A stretch of 56,590 nucleotides of DNA from a bacterium (GTDB lineage: Bacteria; Acidobacteriota; Polarisedimenticolia; J045): positions 1 to 56,590 of the forward strand of contig JAJFTU010000225.1 of assembly GCA_021372775.1 (NCBI GenBank), written 5' to 3'. The notes below the pieces were generated by a model. That model made no database searches. It was given only the letters and a program-made list of their open reading frames with translations, and was not told the DNA's origin. Positions 33,133 through 40,174 of the stretch are shown piece by piece. The translations under genes and the position numbers were made by a program. The stretch's first letter is position 1, and every line of letters begins with the position of its first letter.

Positions 33133-34284
33133 TCAACGCCAGACGCCTGGAATCGCCCGGCCGCAGTCGGGACAGGCGCCGTGCTTCAGCCGGTTCTTGC
33201 GGACGAGCAGCCCGAAGCGCTCGATCAAGAGCGCCTTGCAGCCGGGGCAGTAGGTCGATTCGCCAGGTTCGCCCGGCGCGTTCCCGACGTAGACGAAATG
33301 GAGTCCCTCGTCGAGCGCCGCCGCGCGCGCCCTGGCGAGCGTGGCGATCGGGGTCGGCGGCAGGTTGACGAGACGGTAGGCGGGGAAGAAGCGGGTGAAG
33401 TGGACCGGCACGTCGGGCCCGAGGTCGTCGCGCACGAAGCGGGCCAGGGCGCGGATCTCGGCCTCGCCGTCGTTGAGGGTCGGGATCAGCAGCACGACGA
33501 TCTCGGTCCACGTTCCGCGGCGGCGCAGATGGCGCAGCGTGTCGAGGACCGGCTTCAGCTCGCCGTTGCAGTGCGAGCGGTAGAACGACTCGGTGAACCC
33601 CTTGAGGTCGATCTTCACCGCGGCCGCCGCGTCGCACCAGGCGTCGAGCGGCTCCGCCTGCAGGTAGCCGTTGCTGACGACGACGGTCTTGATCCCGAGC
33701 TTCCGTCCCGCCGCCGCGATGTCGCAGACGTACTCCGACCAGACGACCGGCTCGCTGTAGGTGCAGGCCAGCAGCGGAATGCCCCGCTGCCGCGCCGCCG
33801 CGGCGAGGCGGTCCGGCGGCGCGGGGACGGGGTGGATCTGCTCCGGCCGCGCCTGCGCGATCTCCCAGTTCTGGCAGCAGCGGCACTCGAAGTTGCAGCC
33901 GACCGTCGCCAGCGAAAGGGCCTGCTCGCCGGGCAGGACGTGGAAGAACGGCTTCTTCTCGATCGGGTCGACGTTCAGCGCGACGGGGCGGGAGTGGACG
34001 AGGGTGTAGTAGCGGCCGCCGCGGTTCTCGCGCACCCCGCAGGTGCCGCGCTCCCCTTCGGAGACCCGGCAGCGGCGCGGGCAGAGGCCGCACTCGATCT
34101 CGCCGCGCGGCAGCGCCTTCCACCAGCGGGCGGGGACCGGCGCGAGGCCGGCCTGCTCGTCGCCGAAGAGGGACGGGGCGCCGGCGACGTCCTGCGCGCG
34201 GGCGAGGCGGGAGCAGGCGAGAAGCGCCCCGCCGGCGGCGAGCTGGGCGAGGAGGGCGCGGCGCTCCGGCTGGAACGCGGCCAT
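33133..34284 (-). CDS. amrS: AmmeMemoRadiSam-system radical SAM enzyme
   Basis: 383 residues. The radical-SAM cluster motif is CNFECRCC (CX3CX2C) near residue 135. It follows a Cys-rich N-terminal part CGLCPRRCRVSEGERGTCGVREN, typical of this family and pyruvate-formate-lyase activase relatives. Two C-terminal Cys pairs (YCPGC, ACPDC) form a likely zinc or Fe-S knuckle. Residues 1-31 (ERRALLAQLAAGGALLACSRLARAQ) look like a twin-arginine signal peptide. The family co-occurs with MEMO and AMMECR1 domains, both encoded upstream in the same operon. The reaction is unknown. The symbol is used by analogy. Confidence 0.88.
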   Translation of the reverse strand: MAAFQPERRALLAQLAAGGALLACSRLARAQDVAGAPSLFGDEQAGLAPVPARWWKALPRGEIECGLCPRRCRVSEGERGTCGVRENRGGRYYTLVHSRPVALNVDPIEKKPFFHVLPGEQALSLATVGCNFECRCCQNWEIAQARPEQIHPVPAPPDRLAAAARQRGIPLLACTYSEPVVWSEYVCDIAAAGRKLGIKTVVVSNGYLQAEPLDAWCDAAAAVKIDLKGFTESFYRSHCNGELKPVLDTLRHLRRRGTWTEIVVLLIPTLNDGEAEIRALARFVRDDLGPDVPVHFTRFFPAYRLVNLPPTPIATLARARAAALDEGLHFVYVGNAPGEPGESTYCPGCKALLIERFGLLVRKNRLKHGACPDCGRAIPGVWR

Positions 34285-34295
34285 CGGTCCCCCGG

Positions 34296-35294
34296 TCAGA
34301 CCACCTCGACCTTGATCCGCGCCGGATCGGCCTCGCCGAGGCCGAGCTTCGCGGCGTCGAGGATGTAGAGCGGCTCCCGCCCCTCGGCCTTGAACGAGGG
34401 GAGGCCGACCTCGCGCCGCCGGTCCTCGAGGATCTTCCAGCCGACGAAGTCGAGCGCGGCGACGTTGGTCGAGGCGAGGAAGCCGGCGAACGGCCACTGC
34501 CAGCGCGGGTTGCGCATCGGCCCGGCCTCGCACTGGCCGACGCCGCCGTCGACGACGGTGAGGCGGAGCTTGTCGTTGATCAGCGGGAACGAGGCGAGCT
34601 GGGGGATGAAGGGGCGGCCGTTGTCGGCGTGGAGCTTGTTGGGGTTGTGGACGACGCCGTACCAGTTCTTCATCCCGAGGCTGGCGCCGGCCAGCCCGTG
34701 CTCCTTGAGGACGCAGAGGTTGATCACGGCGGTGACGTCCTGGGCGAGGAACGTCGGGAAGCGCGAGGCCGAAGGGCCCCACTCGCGCACGTTCGGCTCG
34801 TAGTCGCTCTGCGTGCCGAAGACGCGGACGTCGTCCCCGCCGCGGTTGAGGGTGTAGCCGGCGGCGACGAGCTCGGCGTCGGTGCGGTCGAAGACGAGGA
34901 TGTTCCGCGCCGGCAGGCCGGCCTCCTTCAGCCACGAGACGAGTTTCGCCGCGACCTCGGGACGGGAGGAGAGGCCGCGGCGGGCGATGCAGTTGACCTT
35001 GATCGCCACGACGTCGGTCTTGCGGAAGAGCTTGCGGCAGGCGTCGCGCGGCGTCGCTTCCCCCGCGGCGCGGGCGACGGCGGCGCCGAGCGCGGCGTCG
35101 AGCTTGGCCGCGTCGAACTGGCCGTCCTTGAGCAGCCCCTCGCGCTGCGCGCGGGCGACGGTCGCGCTCCCCGGGGCCGACTTGGCGCCGGGAAGCGGGC
35201 CGGGGACGGCGGCGGCGGCGGCGCGGGCGAGCGGCGAGGCGGCGAGCGCCCCCAACGCGAGGGCTTTGATCGTGCGGCGGCGTCCTTCGTCCAT
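34296..35294 (-). CDS. DUF362 protein with Tat-like signal (first copy)
   Basis: 332 residues. RRRTIKALALGALAASPLARA at the N-terminus resembles a Tat leader. Residues 90-310 show DUF362: VVAIKVNCIARRGLSSRPEV, DRTDAELVAAGY, VINLCVLKEHGLAGASLGMKNWYG, and HADNGRPFIPQLASFP, ending in a DFVGWKILE segment. DUF362 proteins are often fused or linked to ferredoxins and are of unknown activity; here it is 11 bp upstream of the radical SAM gene in the same operon. No Cys-rich Fe-S motif is present in this copy. Confidence 0.85.
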   Translation of the reverse strand: MDEGRRRTIKALALGALAASPLARAAAAAVPGPLPGAKSAPGSATVARAQREGLLKDGQFDAAKLDAALGAAVARAAGEATPRDACRKLFRKTDVVAIKVNCIARRGLSSRPEVAAKLVSWLKEAGLPARNILVFDRTDAELVAAGYTLNRGGDDVRVFGTQSDYEPNVREWGPSASRFPTFLAQDVTAVINLCVLKEHGLAGASLGMKNWYGVVHNPNKLHADNGRPFIPQLASFPLINDKLRLTVVDGGVGQCEAGPMRNPRWQWPFAGFLASTNVAALDFVGWKILEDRRREVGLPSFKAEGREPLYILDAAKLGLGEADPARIKVEVV

Positions 35295-35330
35295 GGGTCG
35301 TTCCTTCGTCGGCCGTCCTCGAGGCGGCGG

Positions 35331-36887
35331 TCAATTCTCCTCGAAGACCTGCCCGGTGAAAACCGAGAAGCGGGCGCCGGAGCGCCAGGCGTCGGCGGGG
35401 AGGCCGGCCTTCCGCGCCAGCGCGTCGAGCGTCTGCTCGAGGGTCCAGCCCTGCTCGGGGGCGACCTGCGGGAGGAAGAGGGCGCGGCGGCCCCCCTTCT
35501 CGAGCACGATGCCGTGGCGGCCGAGCTGAATGTCGCGCCACGAGGCGATCGGGCGCGGGGCGGAGAGGACGGTGACCTCGACGGCGAGGCGCGGCAGCTC
35601 GCGCGCCTCGACCGGCTCGAAGCGCGTGTCGTGGAGCGCGGCGTCGAGCGCCGACTCGACGATCGACGTCGCCAGCGGCAGGACGGGGACGACCTGGCCG
35701 ACGCAGCCGCGCAGCTTTCCGTCGCGGGCGATCTCGCGCGGATCGCGGCGGTTCAGCGTGACGAACGTCGCCTGCAGCCGCTGGAATTCCGGCGCGTCGG
35801 GGAGCGCGTCGAGGGCGCGCGGGAGCGCATCCGTTCCGGACAGTTCCGTTTCGAGCGCGGCGCGGGCGAGTGCGGGGAGCCGGCGGCCGAGCGCCTCGGG
35901 GAGCGGCGGCTCGTCGGGGCCGACGGCGCGGTAGACCGGCGGGGCGTCGAGCGGGACGACCTTCGTCGTCTGCGGCGCGCGCGGGAAGGCGACGGCGGCG
36001 TAGTCCACCGCCTCGTCGCGCGGGTCGCCGACCTGCGAGGAATCGTAGTGGGCGAGGAGCACGCCGCGCGAGGCGGGGGCGACGCGGGCGAGGAGCTCGA
36101 GCAGCACGCCGATGGCGGAACGGCCGCAGATCGTCGCCCCGGTCGTCTCGATCACGCGGCGGAAGGCGCGGGCGTCGCGGTTCTCGATCGCCTCGATCGC
36201 CGAGCGATCGACGCCGCGCACGCGGGAGCGGGCGGCGGCGAAGCTCGGGCCGTAGGGGGTGTAGTCGAACGACGGGCCGTAGTGGGTGAAGTCGCTCGAG
36301 GCGACGAAGAGCGTCGTCGCGTCGGCGAGCGGCGCGAGGCGCGCGGCCAGTTCGGCTTCCTGCGCCGGGCTCGTCTGCCCGGCGAGGATCGGGATCAGGC
36401 AGAAGGCGCCGAGGCGGCGCTGCAGGAACGGGAGCTGGATCTCGACCGCGTGCTCGGGGGCCGCGGCCGCGGCGTCGATCCGCAGCAGACGGCCGTCGGC
36501 GAGGCGCGCGGATTCGGGGCAGAGCGGCACGTCGCCGAGCGGCGTGCGGTAGGCCGCGGCGTCGTCCACGGCGAAGCCGTCGAAGGCCCGATGGTGCGAG
36601 GGGGCGAGGACGACGACGCGGCGGACGGCGCCGCGGGGGATCTGGGCGAAGGCGGCGGCCGCGGCCGGGGCGGAGAACTGCCAGCCGGCGTGCGGAACGA
36701 CGAGGGCGAGCGGCGGCGCGTCGAGACGCGGTGCGGGCTCGTTCAGCAGACGCTGCGCCTCGGCGGCGAGCAGCGCGGGGGAACCGGGATACCAGGCGCC
36801 GGCGAGGGCCGGCGGGCGGACGCGCGCGGCGCCGGCCGCGGGAAAGACCGCGGCGAGCGCGGCGGCGGCCACGTGGAGCTTCTTCAC
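35331..36887 (-). CDS. MEMO-AMMECR1 fusion with signal peptide (AmmeMemoRadiSam A/B)
   Basis: 518 residues from GTG, preceded by AAGGAAG. Residues 1-21 (MKKLHVAAAALAAVFPAAGAA) are a good Sec signal peptide. Residues 25-300 are MEMO: LVVPHAGWQFSA, VLAPSHHRAF, EHAVEIQLPFLQ, VASSDFTHYGP and CGRSAIGVLL, with the His/Asp/Cys set of the MEMO metal site. Residues 330-518 are AMMECR1 with LRGCVGQV and RHGIVLEKGGRRALFLPQV. The two are usually separate; fusion supports physical association. The start overlaps the upstream polyferredoxin gene by GTGA. Proposed roles include metal-dependent redox chemistry, unproven. Confidence 0.92.
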   Translation of the reverse strand: MKKLHVAAAALAAVFPAAGAARVRPPALAGAWYPGSPALLAAEAQRLLNEPAPRLDAPPLALVVPHAGWQFSAPAAAAAFAQIPRGAVRRVVVLAPSHHRAFDGFAVDDAAAYRTPLGDVPLCPESARLADGRLLRIDAAAAAPEHAVEIQLPFLQRRLGAFCLIPILAGQTSPAQEAELAARLAPLADATTLFVASSDFTHYGPSFDYTPYGPSFAAARSRVRGVDRSAIEAIENRDARAFRRVIETTGATICGRSAIGVLLELLARVAPASRGVLLAHYDSSQVGDPRDEAVDYAAVAFPRAPQTTKVVPLDAPPVYRAVGPDEPPLPEALGRRLPALARAALETELSGTDALPRALDALPDAPEFQRLQATFVTLNRRDPREIARDGKLRGCVGQVVPVLPLATSIVESALDAALHDTRFEPVEARELPRLAVEVTVLSAPRPIASWRDIQLGRHGIVLEKGGRRALFLPQVAPEQGWTLEQTLDALARKAGLPADAWRSGARFSVFTGQVFEEN

Positions 36888-38425
36888 GCGCTTCCTTTCA
36901 GCGTGAGCGAGGAACGCGGATCGCGCGACTCGCCGACGCGGGTGACGCGGATCGCGGCGAGATCGTTGACGGGGCACTTCGCCTCGCAGAGGCCGCAGCC
37001 GACGCAGCGGGCCGGATCGACGTGGGGGCGCTGCAGCGCGACGACGCTGCCGTCGCGGCGCACGACCTGCGCGCGTTCGAACCAGATCGCCTTCGGGCTG
37101 GACGGGCAGACCTCCTCGCAGACGATGCAGGGGGTGGCCATCGCCCAGGGGAAGCAGCGGCCGTAGTCGTAGAAGGCGGTGCCGATCTTCACGCCCGGAT
37201 GGTCGTGGGTCCAACCCTTTTCGTCCGGGGCGAGCGGGCGGATCGCGCCGGTCGGGCAAGCGTGGCCGCAGCGGGTGCAGCTCGGCTCGCACCAGCCGCG
37301 GCGCGGCACGAGGACGGGGGTCCAGAGCCCTTCGAGGCCCGCCTCGCCCATCGCGGGCTGGAGCGCGCTCGTCGGGCAGGCGTTGACGCAGGCGCCGCAG
37401 CGGACGCAGCGGGCGAGGAACTCCTCTTCGGGGAGCGCGCCGGGGGGGCGGATCGCCTGCGGGCCGGGGCTGGAGGCGGCGCCGGCGGACGCGCGCAGCA
37501 GCGGCGTGAGCGCGGCGCCGGCGACGAGGGCGCCGAGGAGCTGGCGGCGTTCGAGCTGCACGCCGCCGTTCGGCGCGGCCGTGCGGGCGAACGGCGCGTA
37601 GCGGATCGCGTCCGAGGGGCACGAGGCGACGCAGTTCAGGCAGACGTGGCACTCGGAGACGCGGTGCTCGGCCCATGGCTCGTCGGCGCCTTGGCAGTCG
37701 CGGGCGCAGGCGCGGCAGTGGTTGCAGCGGTCGGGATCGACGGCGATGCGGAAGATCGCGACGCGCGAGGTCCAGCCGAGAAGGGCGCCGAGCGGGCAGA
37801 GGACGCGGCACCACCAGCGGGCGATCCAGCGGTTCGCGGCGAGCAGGGCGAGGAAGAGGGCGGCGGTGAGCCAGGCGGCGATGAAGACGCGCGGGCGGAA
37901 CGACGTCGCCGGGGCGGCGGCGCGCGCGGCGGCGAAGAGGCCGGCGCCGAAGGAGCGGGTGGCGAGCGAGAGCGGGTCGAAGAGGGCGACGGTCAGTCCG
38001 CCGGCGAGGGCGGCGCCGAGTCCGGCGACGAGGAGGAAGTACTTCGTGCGGAACAGCGGTCGCCAGCGGTTGAGGACGTGGCCCGGACCGCGGCGCAGCG
38101 GGCGCGAGAGATACGAGGCGAGATGGTTGAGCGTGCCGAGCGGGCAGATCCAGCCGCAGAAGACGCGGCCGAAGAGGACCGTGGCGAGGACGAGGAGCAG
38201 CGCCGTGAGGAGGGCGGCGGGGAGAACCCACGACGCGGCGAGCGTGCCGAACGCGGCGAGCGGGTCGAGGTTGTAGAGGAACCGCGCGGGGAAGCGGCGC
38301 AGCCCTTCGTCGGTCATCAGGAAGAGGCCGAGCGCGAAGAGGAGCAGGAAGTAGGCCTGGTAGACGCGGCGGAAGGTGCGCGCGAGGCGGCGGGGGCGGC
38401 GTTGCGCGCGGTCAGGCGCCGACAT
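36884..38425 (-). CDS. NapH/NapG-like membrane polyferredoxin fusion
   Basis: 513 residues. The first half has about five membrane helices with the CGWICPLG and CRVLCPLG motifs of NapH/MauN-type quinol oxidases, then two 4Fe-4S sites (CNHCRACARDCQ; CHVCLNCVASCP). A Tat-like RRQLLGALVAGAALTPLLRAS (about 300) follows. The second half carries CVRCGACVNACP, CEPSCTRCGHACP, CIVCEEVCP and CVGCGLCEAKCP. It therefore looks like NapH joined to NapG. If the internal helix crosses the membrane, electrons from quinol would reach the periplasmic side. It overlaps the DUF362 gene by 14 bp. It is the probable electron source for the system. Confidence 0.88.
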   Translation of the reverse strand: MSAPDRAQRRPRRLARTFRRVYQAYFLLLFALGLFLMTDEGLRRFPARFLYNLDPLAAFGTLAASWVLPAALLTALLLVLATVLFGRVFCGWICPLGTLNHLASYLSRPLRRGPGHVLNRWRPLFRTKYFLLVAGLGAALAGGLTVALFDPLSLATRSFGAGLFAAARAAAPATSFRPRVFIAAWLTAALFLALLAANRWIARWWCRVLCPLGALLGWTSRVAIFRIAVDPDRCNHCRACARDCQGADEPWAEHRVSECHVCLNCVASCPSDAIRYAPFARTAAPNGGVQLERRQLLGALVAGAALTPLLRASAGAASSPGPQAIRPPGALPEEEFLARCVRCGACVNACPTSALQPAMGEAGLEGLWTPVLVPRRGWCEPSCTRCGHACPTGAIRPLAPDEKGWTHDHPGVKIGTAFYDYGRCFPWAMATPCIVCEEVCPSSPKAIWFERAQVVRRDGSVVALQRPHVDPARCVGCGLCEAKCPVNDLAAIRVTRVGESRDPRSSLTLKGSA

Positions 38426-39401
38426 GGGTTTCGCCTCCGAGGGCGGGCGCGGCGGCGGCGCGGCCGAGGCCGCGTCCTTCGGCGAGCGCGATGTAGGGGA
38501 TGTCGGCGGGATCGGCGCCGAGGACGCGCGCCGACCACGCGTCGAGCGCGACCGGATCGGTGCCGGCGGCCAGGAGGTCGCGGCGCGCGACGTCCTCGAG
38601 GCGGCCGCCGGTCGGGCCGCCGCGCATCAGCACGCGCGTGGCGTCAACGATCGTGAGGGTCGGGCGGATGGCGGCGCCGAGGTCGGCGATCGCGTTGTGG
38701 ATGTCCTGGTGCAGGCGCGCCCGCGTGCCGCCGAGGAAGCCGTAGGAGTTCTTGAACACGCAGGTCAGGCGGGAAAGGGCGTGGTCCTTGACGATCGGCA
38801 GGCTGATCAGCTTGTCGGCCTCGAAGAGGTCGCCGAGGAGATCCCATCGCGCGAGGACCGTTCCGTGGAGGTCGGCGGCGAGGAACGGCGCGGCGGGCGG
38901 GATGTGGAGTTCGCCGCCCGCCTCGAGGGTCGCGCGGCGGATGCCGGAGCGCTCGGACGTGCGCGAGGCGTCGTGCACGGGGTTCTCGGCGACGACGACC
39001 CGGCGCGCGCCGGCGGCGCGGCATTGGCGGACGACCTCGCCGACGATGGCGGGGTGCGTGTTCGCCCCCTGCTCGACGTTGCGGTCCCAGGCCATGTTCG
39101 GCTTGATCAGCACGCGGTCGCCGGGGCGCACGAAACGGCCGACGCCGCCGAGCTTGTCGAGGGCGGCGCGGACGAGGAGCGCGGGGTCGGCGCCGTGCGC
39201 GGCGAAGACCGTGGGGCGCAGCGGGTCGGCGGGGACGCGGAAGTCGGGAACGGTGCGCGCCGCGGCGAGACGGCCGAAACGTCCGGGGGAGAGCCGGCCG
39301 AGGGCGGCGAGCGCGGCGGCGCCGCCGAGGACGGCCGAGGCCTGGACCAGACGGCGCAGGACGAGGCGGCGGTTGGGGCGCGGATCGTCTTGGGGGGTCA
39401 T
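38412..39401 (-). CDS. DUF362 protein with Tat signal (second copy)
   Basis: 329 residues. NRRLVLRRLVQASAVLGGAAALAALG is a strong Tat-type leader. DUF362 landmarks are VLIKPNMAWDRNVEQGANTHP, VAENPVHDASRTS, LISLPIVKDHALSRLTCVFKNSYGFLGG, and TLTIVDATRVLMRGGPTGG. It differs in sequence from the other DUF362 product of this operon, so the pair is not a recent duplication. It overlaps the first codons of the polyferredoxin gene and the stop of the upstream anchored protein (ATG within TGA context). Confidence 0.87.
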   Translation of the reverse strand: MTPQDDPRPNRRLVLRRLVQASAVLGGAAALAALGRLSPGRFGRLAAARTVPDFRVPADPLRPTVFAAHGADPALLVRAALDKLGGVGRFVRPGDRVLIKPNMAWDRNVEQGANTHPAIVGEVVRQCRAAGARRVVVAENPVHDASRTSERSGIRRATLEAGGELHIPPAAPFLAADLHGTVLARWDLLGDLFEADKLISLPIVKDHALSRLTCVFKNSYGFLGGTRARLHQDIHNAIADLGAAIRPTLTIVDATRVLMRGGPTGGRLEDVARRDLLAAGTDPVALDAWSARVLGADPADIPYIALAEGRGLGRAAAAPALGGETHVGA

Positions 39402-40174
39402 TTCGCGGCTCCCGCGAGGTAGGCGTCGAGCTTGGCGGCGACCGGGGCGAGGGCGCCCGGCGCGGCCGGGGCGTCGGGGTCGGCGAGGAGCCGGACGTAG
39501 GCCGGGCCGCGGCGGAAGTAGATCGACTGGGGAGCGGCCTGGGCCTCGTCGCCGGGGCCGGGGGTCCGGTCGGGGCCGGCGTCGCGGGCGAGGGCCTTGG
39601 CCGCGCCGGCCGCGGTGTCGAACAGGAGGAGTTCGAGGTCGGCCGCGGGGGCGGGAAGGCGCCAGTAGACGAGGCGGCGGCAGCCGATCGACGTGAGGTA
39701 GGCCGCGGCGCCGTCGACGCGCTCCTCGAGGCGATCCTGCGGAAGGTCGGCCTCGGGGCGGGGGAGCCCGGGCGCGGCGGCCGGGTCGGGCACGGTCGCG
39801 GGCCGGGTCGCGGCGGCGGTCGTTGCGGGCGCGGCGGGGGCCGAGGGCGTCGACGCGTTTGCGGCCGCGGTCGCGCGCGCGGGCCCGGCTGTCGTCGCGG
39901 GCGCGACGGCGGGCTGCGGGGGAACCGGGCCTTGGACGGCGGCGCTCGGTTCGGTCGCGGCCGGCGTCGGAGCGGCGGGCGCGGGCGCCGAGGGGAGGGT
40001 CGGCGCGGCGGCGATCGGACTCGGCGCGGCCGGCGTCGACGCGGCGGGAAGGTCGCGGACGGAGACGTCGTGGGAGCGGTTGGCCGCTCCCCACGCGATC
40101 CACGCCGTCAGAACGACGAGCGGCGCGGCGAGCAGCGGGCCGACGATCCAGCCGGAGATGCGTCGATCGGTCAT
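39398..40174 (-). CDS. Membrane-anchored Ala/Pro-rich protein, DUF6599-like C-terminus
   Basis: 258 residues. One helix (residues 8-30, GWIVGPLLAAPLVVLTAWIAWG) anchors it. Residues 40-140 are an Ala/Pro/Thr-rich linker, and residues 145-258 form a small domain: VDGAAAYLTSIGCRRLVYWRL, SIYFRRGPAYVRLLADPD and VAAKLDAYLAG. The pattern resembles DUF6599, which is seen near DUF362 and polyferredoxin genes, but the match is by eye. First gene of the operon; it is probably exposed to the periplasm. No enzymatic motif is visible. Confidence 0.55.
   Translation of the reverse strand: MTDRRISGWIVGPLLAAPLVVLTAWIAWGAANRSHDVSVRDLPAASTPAAPSPIAAAPTLPSAPAPAAPTPAATEPSAAVQGPVPPQPAVAPATTAGPARATAAANASTPSAPAAPATTAAATRPATVPDPAAAPGLPRPEADLPQDRLEERVDGAAAYLTSIGCRRLVYWRLPAPAADLELLLFDTAAGAAKALARDAGPDRTPGPGDEAQAAPQSIYFRRGPAYVRLLADPDAPAAPGALAPVAAKLDAYLAGAAK

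Follow-up and report, generated by a model that had tools for sequence, protein, structure and literature searches.

Six genes of an acidobacterium (Acidobacteriota; Polarisedimenticolia; J045; GCA_021372775.1) can with some confidence be read as an operon for an extracytoplasmic AmmeMemoRadiSam system, to which a SpeE-like membrane protein would supply SAM and a membrane module would deliver electrons. The operon is located in a stretch of 56,590 nucleotides (contig JAJFTU010000225.1, positions 1 to 56,590), which was analyzed as a whole and is called the window. The genes of interest are the following:

39398..40174, minus strand: DUF6599-like protein with a membrane anchor at the N-terminus
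38412..39401, minus strand: DUF362a, with a twin-arginine N-terminus that is atypical in the window and canonical in homologues
36884..38425, minus strand: NapH-NapG fusion polyferredoxin
35331..36887, minus strand: MEMO-AMMECR1 fusion (TIGR04336 and TIGR04335) with a GTG start and a Sec-type signal peptide
34296..35294, minus strand: DUF362b, with a Tat-like leader and a predicted LarA-like fold
33133..34284, minus strand: radical SAM protein (rSAM) of AmmeMemoRadiSam family TIGR04337, 383 aa, with a Tat-like leader (residues 1-30) and the CxxxCxxC motif C130/C134/C137
30636..33083, plus strand: SpeE-like membrane protein, six transmembrane (TM) helices, SpeE-like domain and six TM helices, convergent with the rSAM gene; candidate SAM supplier

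All six operon genes are encoded on the minus strand (40174-33133) in the order DUF6599-like, DUF362a, NapH-NapG, MEMO-AMMECR1, DUF362b and rSAM. Their junctions are overlaps of 4, 14 and 4 nt, followed by gaps of 36 and 11 nt. The original prediction of six tightly overlapping genes was thus correct for the genes, their families and their close packing, but not for an overlap at every junction, because two junctions are gaps.

The family assignments were based on profile scores. The rSAM reached 362 bits with TIGR04337 (cut-off 220) and 59.2 bits with PF04055 (threshold 29.5), and C130, C134 and C137 are conserved. The MEMO part scored 202.7 bits with TIGR04336 (cut-off 26), the AMMECR1 part 150.2 bits with TIGR04335 (cut-off 99), and the two DUF362 proteins 154 and 74.9 bits with PF04015 (gathering score 24). 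The DUF6599-like protein stayed just below the gathering score of PF20244 (25.5 versus 27 bits), and the NapH-NapG fusion was below the cut-offs of the nitrate reductase proteins (PRK09476, 101 versus 269; TIGR02163, 81.6 versus 213). Like the known AmmeMemoRadiSam system (TIGR04335/04336/04337), the operon therefore contains all three families above their cut-offs. It differs in that the rSAM, the MEMO-AMMECR1 fusion and their partners carry export signals, and in the additional SpeE-like protein and electron module. A statement that the AmmeMemoRadiSam system is exported was not found in the literature searched. The genome, which is 99.6% complete, contains one TIGR04337-like gene and one TatC. 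It also encodes a separate AMMECR1-like gene (C472:28489-29031) and a separate MEMO-like gene (C198:12570-13421); the latter match spans one TGA and is located on the same contig as TatC. Despite these two separate genes, no second rSAM was found in the genome.

The leaders were judged by motif and hydropathy rules together with conservation, and about 10 of the 65 rSAM leaders by eye. In the window they read MAAFQPERRALLAQLAAGGALLACSRLARA for the rSAM, MDEGRRRTIKALALGALAASPLARAAAA for DUF362b, MTPQDDPRPNRRLVLRRLVQASAVLGGAAALAALG for DUF362a and, from the GTG start, MKKLHVAAAALAAVFPAAGA for the MEMO-AMMECR1 fusion, while an internal twin-arginine stretch, ERRQLLGALVAGAALTPLL, precedes the NapG part of the polyferredoxin. 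The twin-arginine-like leaders that had been proposed for the rSAM and both DUF362 proteins were recovered. They can be described as putative Tat signals, with a twin-arginine, a weakly hydrophobic uncharged stretch and conservation in homologues. The leaders of the two DUF362 proteins of the window, taken on their own, are atypical Tat signals, and those of their homologues are canonical, i.e., RREFLRRL (L037), SRREFIKK (L041) and SRREFLRK (L048). Canonical twin-arginine leaders were also found in the rSAMs of operon relatives: TRREFLSSSISALCGLSLGSAVFAEN (L041), TRREFLKDCLWSGCALGALSVVM (L042) and TRREFLKLGAAGIACSACAIPLIAG (L048). The comparison across homologous operons thus showed that the leaders are kept and that the Tat motifs are canonical in L037, L041, L042 and L048. 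The proposed Sec signal of the MEMO-AMMECR1 fusion was likewise seen in the window, and relatives carry Sec or lipoprotein signals. In most loci with an exported rSAM, Sec/lipoprotein signals of MEMO-AMMECR1 were accompanied by Tat signals of DUF362b. Between the first codon of the window rSAM and its core, ATG, GTG and TTG are absent. The single possible start thus is at the leader, which must be translated, and a downstream start was ruled out. Of the 65 leader-bearing rSAMs, 59 do have an in-frame ATG, GTG or TTG between leader and core, and the evidence for the leader of these homologues is its conservation.

A scan of named genomes yielded 80 loci, and a tree was built with 120 rSAM cores. 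All 65 leader-bearing rSAMs fell into one group of 69 members (SH-aLRT 87), which spans more than 20 phyla, two of them archaeal. Three changes of the leader label were needed on the tree, compared with 40 for shuffled labels. The strict Tat motif was present in 39/65 rSAMs of the exported group and in none of the 55 leaderless relatives, with a shuffling expectation of 0.4. An origin of the leaders as a G+C artefact was ruled out by this expectation and by low-GC homologues that also have the leader. Four group members lack a leader in their own frame: L118 is truncated at the end of its contig, and L107, L134 and L150 have it in an upstream frame. The latter three form one subclade (two Omnitrophota, one unclassified), in which a hydrophobic leader and a linker occupy a separate upstream frame. 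The junction is an ATGA overlap in L150 and L134 and a short insertion in L107, as in a split gene or a frameshift. The residues conserved in leaderless rSAMs were retained in the exported group, with a minor drop only at A319, and R298 is invariant in this group and particular to it. Two side observations were made: the leaderless rSAM of G050 (L174:697-3138) has a large intein-like insertion at CxxxCxxC, and a nitroreductase-like gene recurs in the exported-rSAM loci L092, L106, L121 and L141.

Several further signs of export were independent of the leader motif. TatC was present in 15/16 genomes with a Tat-leader rSAM, compared with 5/15 genomes with a Sec-type leader (p=6e-4), and tatC is located near the rSAM gene in L121, L146 and L139 (Altiarchaeota, Aenigmatarchaeota and one Omnitrophota locus). 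c-haem is attached at the outer side of the membrane, and a CxxCH c-haem motif was found between leader and core in six homologues (L049/L113, L094, L099, L114, L178 and L179). The six motifs share their relative position and are surrounded by variable sequence. C-terminal zinc-ribbon CxxCH motifs were discounted, as they also occur in leaderless relatives. Two genomes, G010 and G005 (L199 and L200), encode a signal-bearing MEMO-AMMECR1 and neither an exported rSAM nor the SpeE-like protein, and thus export of MEMO is not tied to export of the rSAM. The proposal of a radical SAM/MEMO machine outside the cytoplasm is therefore well supported by leaders that characterize one rSAM subfamily in more than 20 phyla and whose type tracks TatC. 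Additional support came from the Sec/lipoprotein signals of the partners, the nearby tatC genes, the CxxCH motifs and the intact radical SAM residues. As judged from these sequence features, the module is very likely exported from the cytoplasm.

The gene convergent with the rSAM gene had been overlooked in the original prediction. Its product is a membrane protein that matches PF01564 through a spermidine-synthase-like domain. An AF2 model (pLDDT 88) consists of six helices, a SpeE fold and again six helices. According to the positive-inside rule, and given the 6+6 arrangement of the helices, the SpeE-like domain in the central loop is predicted to face the cytoplasm. A SpeE-like gene adjoins 35 of the 65 leader-type rSAM loci, but only one of the 55 leaderless loci; neighbour clusters made of shadow ORFs were dropped. 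Throughout the genomes of 60 relatives and the window genome, the protein was found in 16/16 genomes with an exported rSAM (G043 and G058 being included through a distant adjacent homologue) versus 3/45 others. In two of these three exceptions, G004 and G008, a MEMO-AMMECR1 of the exported type is truncated by the edge of a contig. The respective numbers in 50 named genomes were 32/34 and 0/16, with G094, G100 and G107 counted as exported because each encodes another rSAM next to the SpeE-like gene. A clear Tat leader is present in two of these additional rSAMs, and the third has a CxxCH motif and no leader readable in frame. After combination and reclassification, the protein was present in 50/52 genomes with an exported rSAM versus 1/59 others, counts that ignore kinship, in which some genomes changed class on a second look, in each case because of an additional rSAM or a truncated operon, and whose absences are weakened by the many incomplete MAGs. 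The two genomes with an exported rSAM in which it was not detected are those of L098 and L120. A functional link between the SpeE-like protein and the exported rSAM is very probable.

The genome of the window has no PF02675 match for SpeD, and SpeD is absent from 37/50 genomes with an exported rSAM; therefore decarboxylated SAM is usually not available in these genomes. Where SpeD is present, it usually adjoins a separate SpeE-size match. The absence of SpeD was taken as a sign that the SpeE-like domain handles SAM itself. The window protein scored 49 with TIGR00417, below the speE equivalog cut-off of 249.55. It has the same domain layout as the fused MFS/spermidine synthases NF037959 and PRK03612, and the scores of the homologues of L121 and L146 exceed the cut-off of NF037959. 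The window member differs in that it is below the aminopropyltransferase cut-offs, belongs to a genome without SpeD and is tied to an exported rSAM. The glycine motif is degenerate in its clade (GGLEAG in the window, GRLPLG in L037), and thus SAM binding is less sure in this clade than in the wider family, which is the chief counterargument to a supply of SAM by this protein. We give about even chances to the proposal that the protein supplies SAM at the outside, a candidate role that may address the objection that SAM is lacking there.

The strongest competing explanation, which we consider rather unlikely, accepts the export of the module and views the SpeE-like protein as an aminopropyl- or aminocarboxypropyltransferase that acts on a membrane substrate at the inner side, while the rSAM obtains its SAM otherwise. 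The domain indeed has the aminopropyltransferase fold, the family-wide residues R399, D370 and DxPxPxT..NR (alignment numbering) resemble an active site, and tight co-occurrence would equally suit a pathway enzyme. However, with SpeD missing from most genomes, decarboxylated SAM would usually not be available, SpeD usually has a separate SpeE-size match at its side where it is found, and the 6+6 helix layout is transporter-like. In addition, G005 and G010, with an exported MEMO-AMMECR1 and without an exported rSAM, manage without the SpeE-like protein.

It is improbable that the exported rSAM uses no SAM from outside and either leaves with cluster and SAM already bound and turns over once, or has the role of an Fe-S redox partner. 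We know of no established periplasmic SAM pool, which would speak for this possibility. The catalytic residues common to the cytoplasmic relatives are all kept, and the near-universal SpeE-like companion would be left unexplained. Tat transports proteins after folding and cofactor insertion (Tooke et al., 2017, PMC5449189), but relatives with Sec leaders could not take bound SAM out in a folded state. Finally, non-functional leaders and a cytoplasmic system, as might be suspected from window leaders that are not textbook Tat signals and from the usual cytoplasmic location of radical SAM enzymes, are hardly credible in view of leaders kept over more than 20 phyla with divergent sequences, a Tat/Sec swap in line with the presence of TatC, co-exported partners, CxxCH motifs and the single start codon.

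An exported rSAM would need electrons at the outer face of the membrane. The NapH-NapG fusion consists of four TM helices with cytoplasmic Fe-S motifs, R292-R293, TM5 and four outer [4Fe-4S] motifs; the internal twin-arginine helix noticed earlier was thereby located, with R292-R293 ahead of TM5. The fusion was found in the window, L037, L038 and L079, and additionally in G027 and G004. Omnitrophota and Elusimicrobia loci have a DsbD-like protein in its place, and other loci with Sec leaders have a DsbD-FMN_bind-Fer4_5 fusion near the rSAM. It is plausible, by analogy, that quinol electrons drive the exported rSAM via NapH-NapG. The reducing power of menaquinol is low for a radical SAM cluster, and quinol by itself would seem insufficient for this role. 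A polyferredoxin of the same layout from the delta-proteobacterium MLMS-1, i.e., a NapH-NapG fusion with five TM helices, a twin-arginine ahead of TM5 and Fe-S motifs on both sides, was shown experimentally to be a membrane protein that needs both Sec and Tat (Tooke et al., 2017, PMC5449189). The protein of the window differs in that its gene shares an operon with the DUF362, MEMO-AMMECR1 and rSAM genes. NapH-like and DsbD-type extracytosolic electron systems have been described as membrane modules that pass electrons to enzymes outside (Meheust et al., 2021, PMC8238504), and DsbD-FMN_bind-Fer4_5 proteins of this type adjoin some of the exported rSAMs. The main text of that study does not mention radical SAM, MEMO, AMMECR1 or DUF362.

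The invariant residues of DUF362b are K99, K197, H199, K209, N210, H222, D282 and R293; an Fe-S protein is not favoured, since no Cys is invariant. The best PDB matches of its model were LarA enzymes (E 5e-6), with a TM-score of only about 0.5, and it is a DUF362 rather than a DUF2088 protein and carries an export leader, in both respects differing from the lactate racemase superfamily. Both DUF362 and DUF2088 belong to Pfam clan CL0471 (PMC11770544). A LarC-like PF01969 match was also found in the window genome. MEMO was compared with human MEMO1 by alignment only.

The gene set, the conserved leaders, the intact rSAM residues, the association with the SpeE-like protein and the dominant absence of SpeD are properties of the sequences, from which we infer actual export, SAM transport and the electron route. 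In the favoured model of an extracytoplasmic system, the rSAM and the two putatively LarA-like DUF362 proteins would leave the cytoplasm folded through Tat, and MEMO-AMMECR1, a putative lipoprotein in many relatives, would go out by Sec. The NapH-NapG fusion would span the membrane and hand electrons to the outer face, a task that DsbD or DsbD-FMN-NapH proteins would fulfil in other lineages. The 12-TM protein would bind SAM or a SAM-derived nucleoside on the cytoplasmic side via its SpeE-like domain and move SAM outward, possibly with methionine and 5'-deoxyadenosine moving inward in return. Given SAM and electrons, the exported rSAM would perform radical chemistry on an envelope substrate together with MEMO-AMMECR1. 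With the cell envelope as the predicted site of action, RNA modification is argued against as the function of the exported subfamily.

The superfamily of radical SAM enzymes is among the largest known, and its members are taken as cytoplasmic owing to their need for SAM and low-potential electrons and their oxygen sensitivity. No description of an extracytoplasmic radical SAM enzyme was found in the literature searched, which covered a minority of the subscription papers. If the model is true, neither an enzyme of this kind nor a SAM exporter dedicated to an envelope enzyme would, as far as found, have been described before. It is tempting to speculate, at slightly less than even chances, that a widespread and ancient rSAM system exists outside the cytoplasm, with its own 12-TM, SpeE-like SAM exporter and with membrane electron donors that can replace one another. 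The cytoplasm-only view of radical SAM enzymes would be altered by a subfamily that is exported in more than 20 phyla and consistently accompanied by a possible SAM supplier, and a testable role is offered for an uncharacterised family that is now annotated as spermidine synthase. MEMO and AMMECR1 are conserved and have human homologues, and their function is unclear; the exported system would provide a handle on it.
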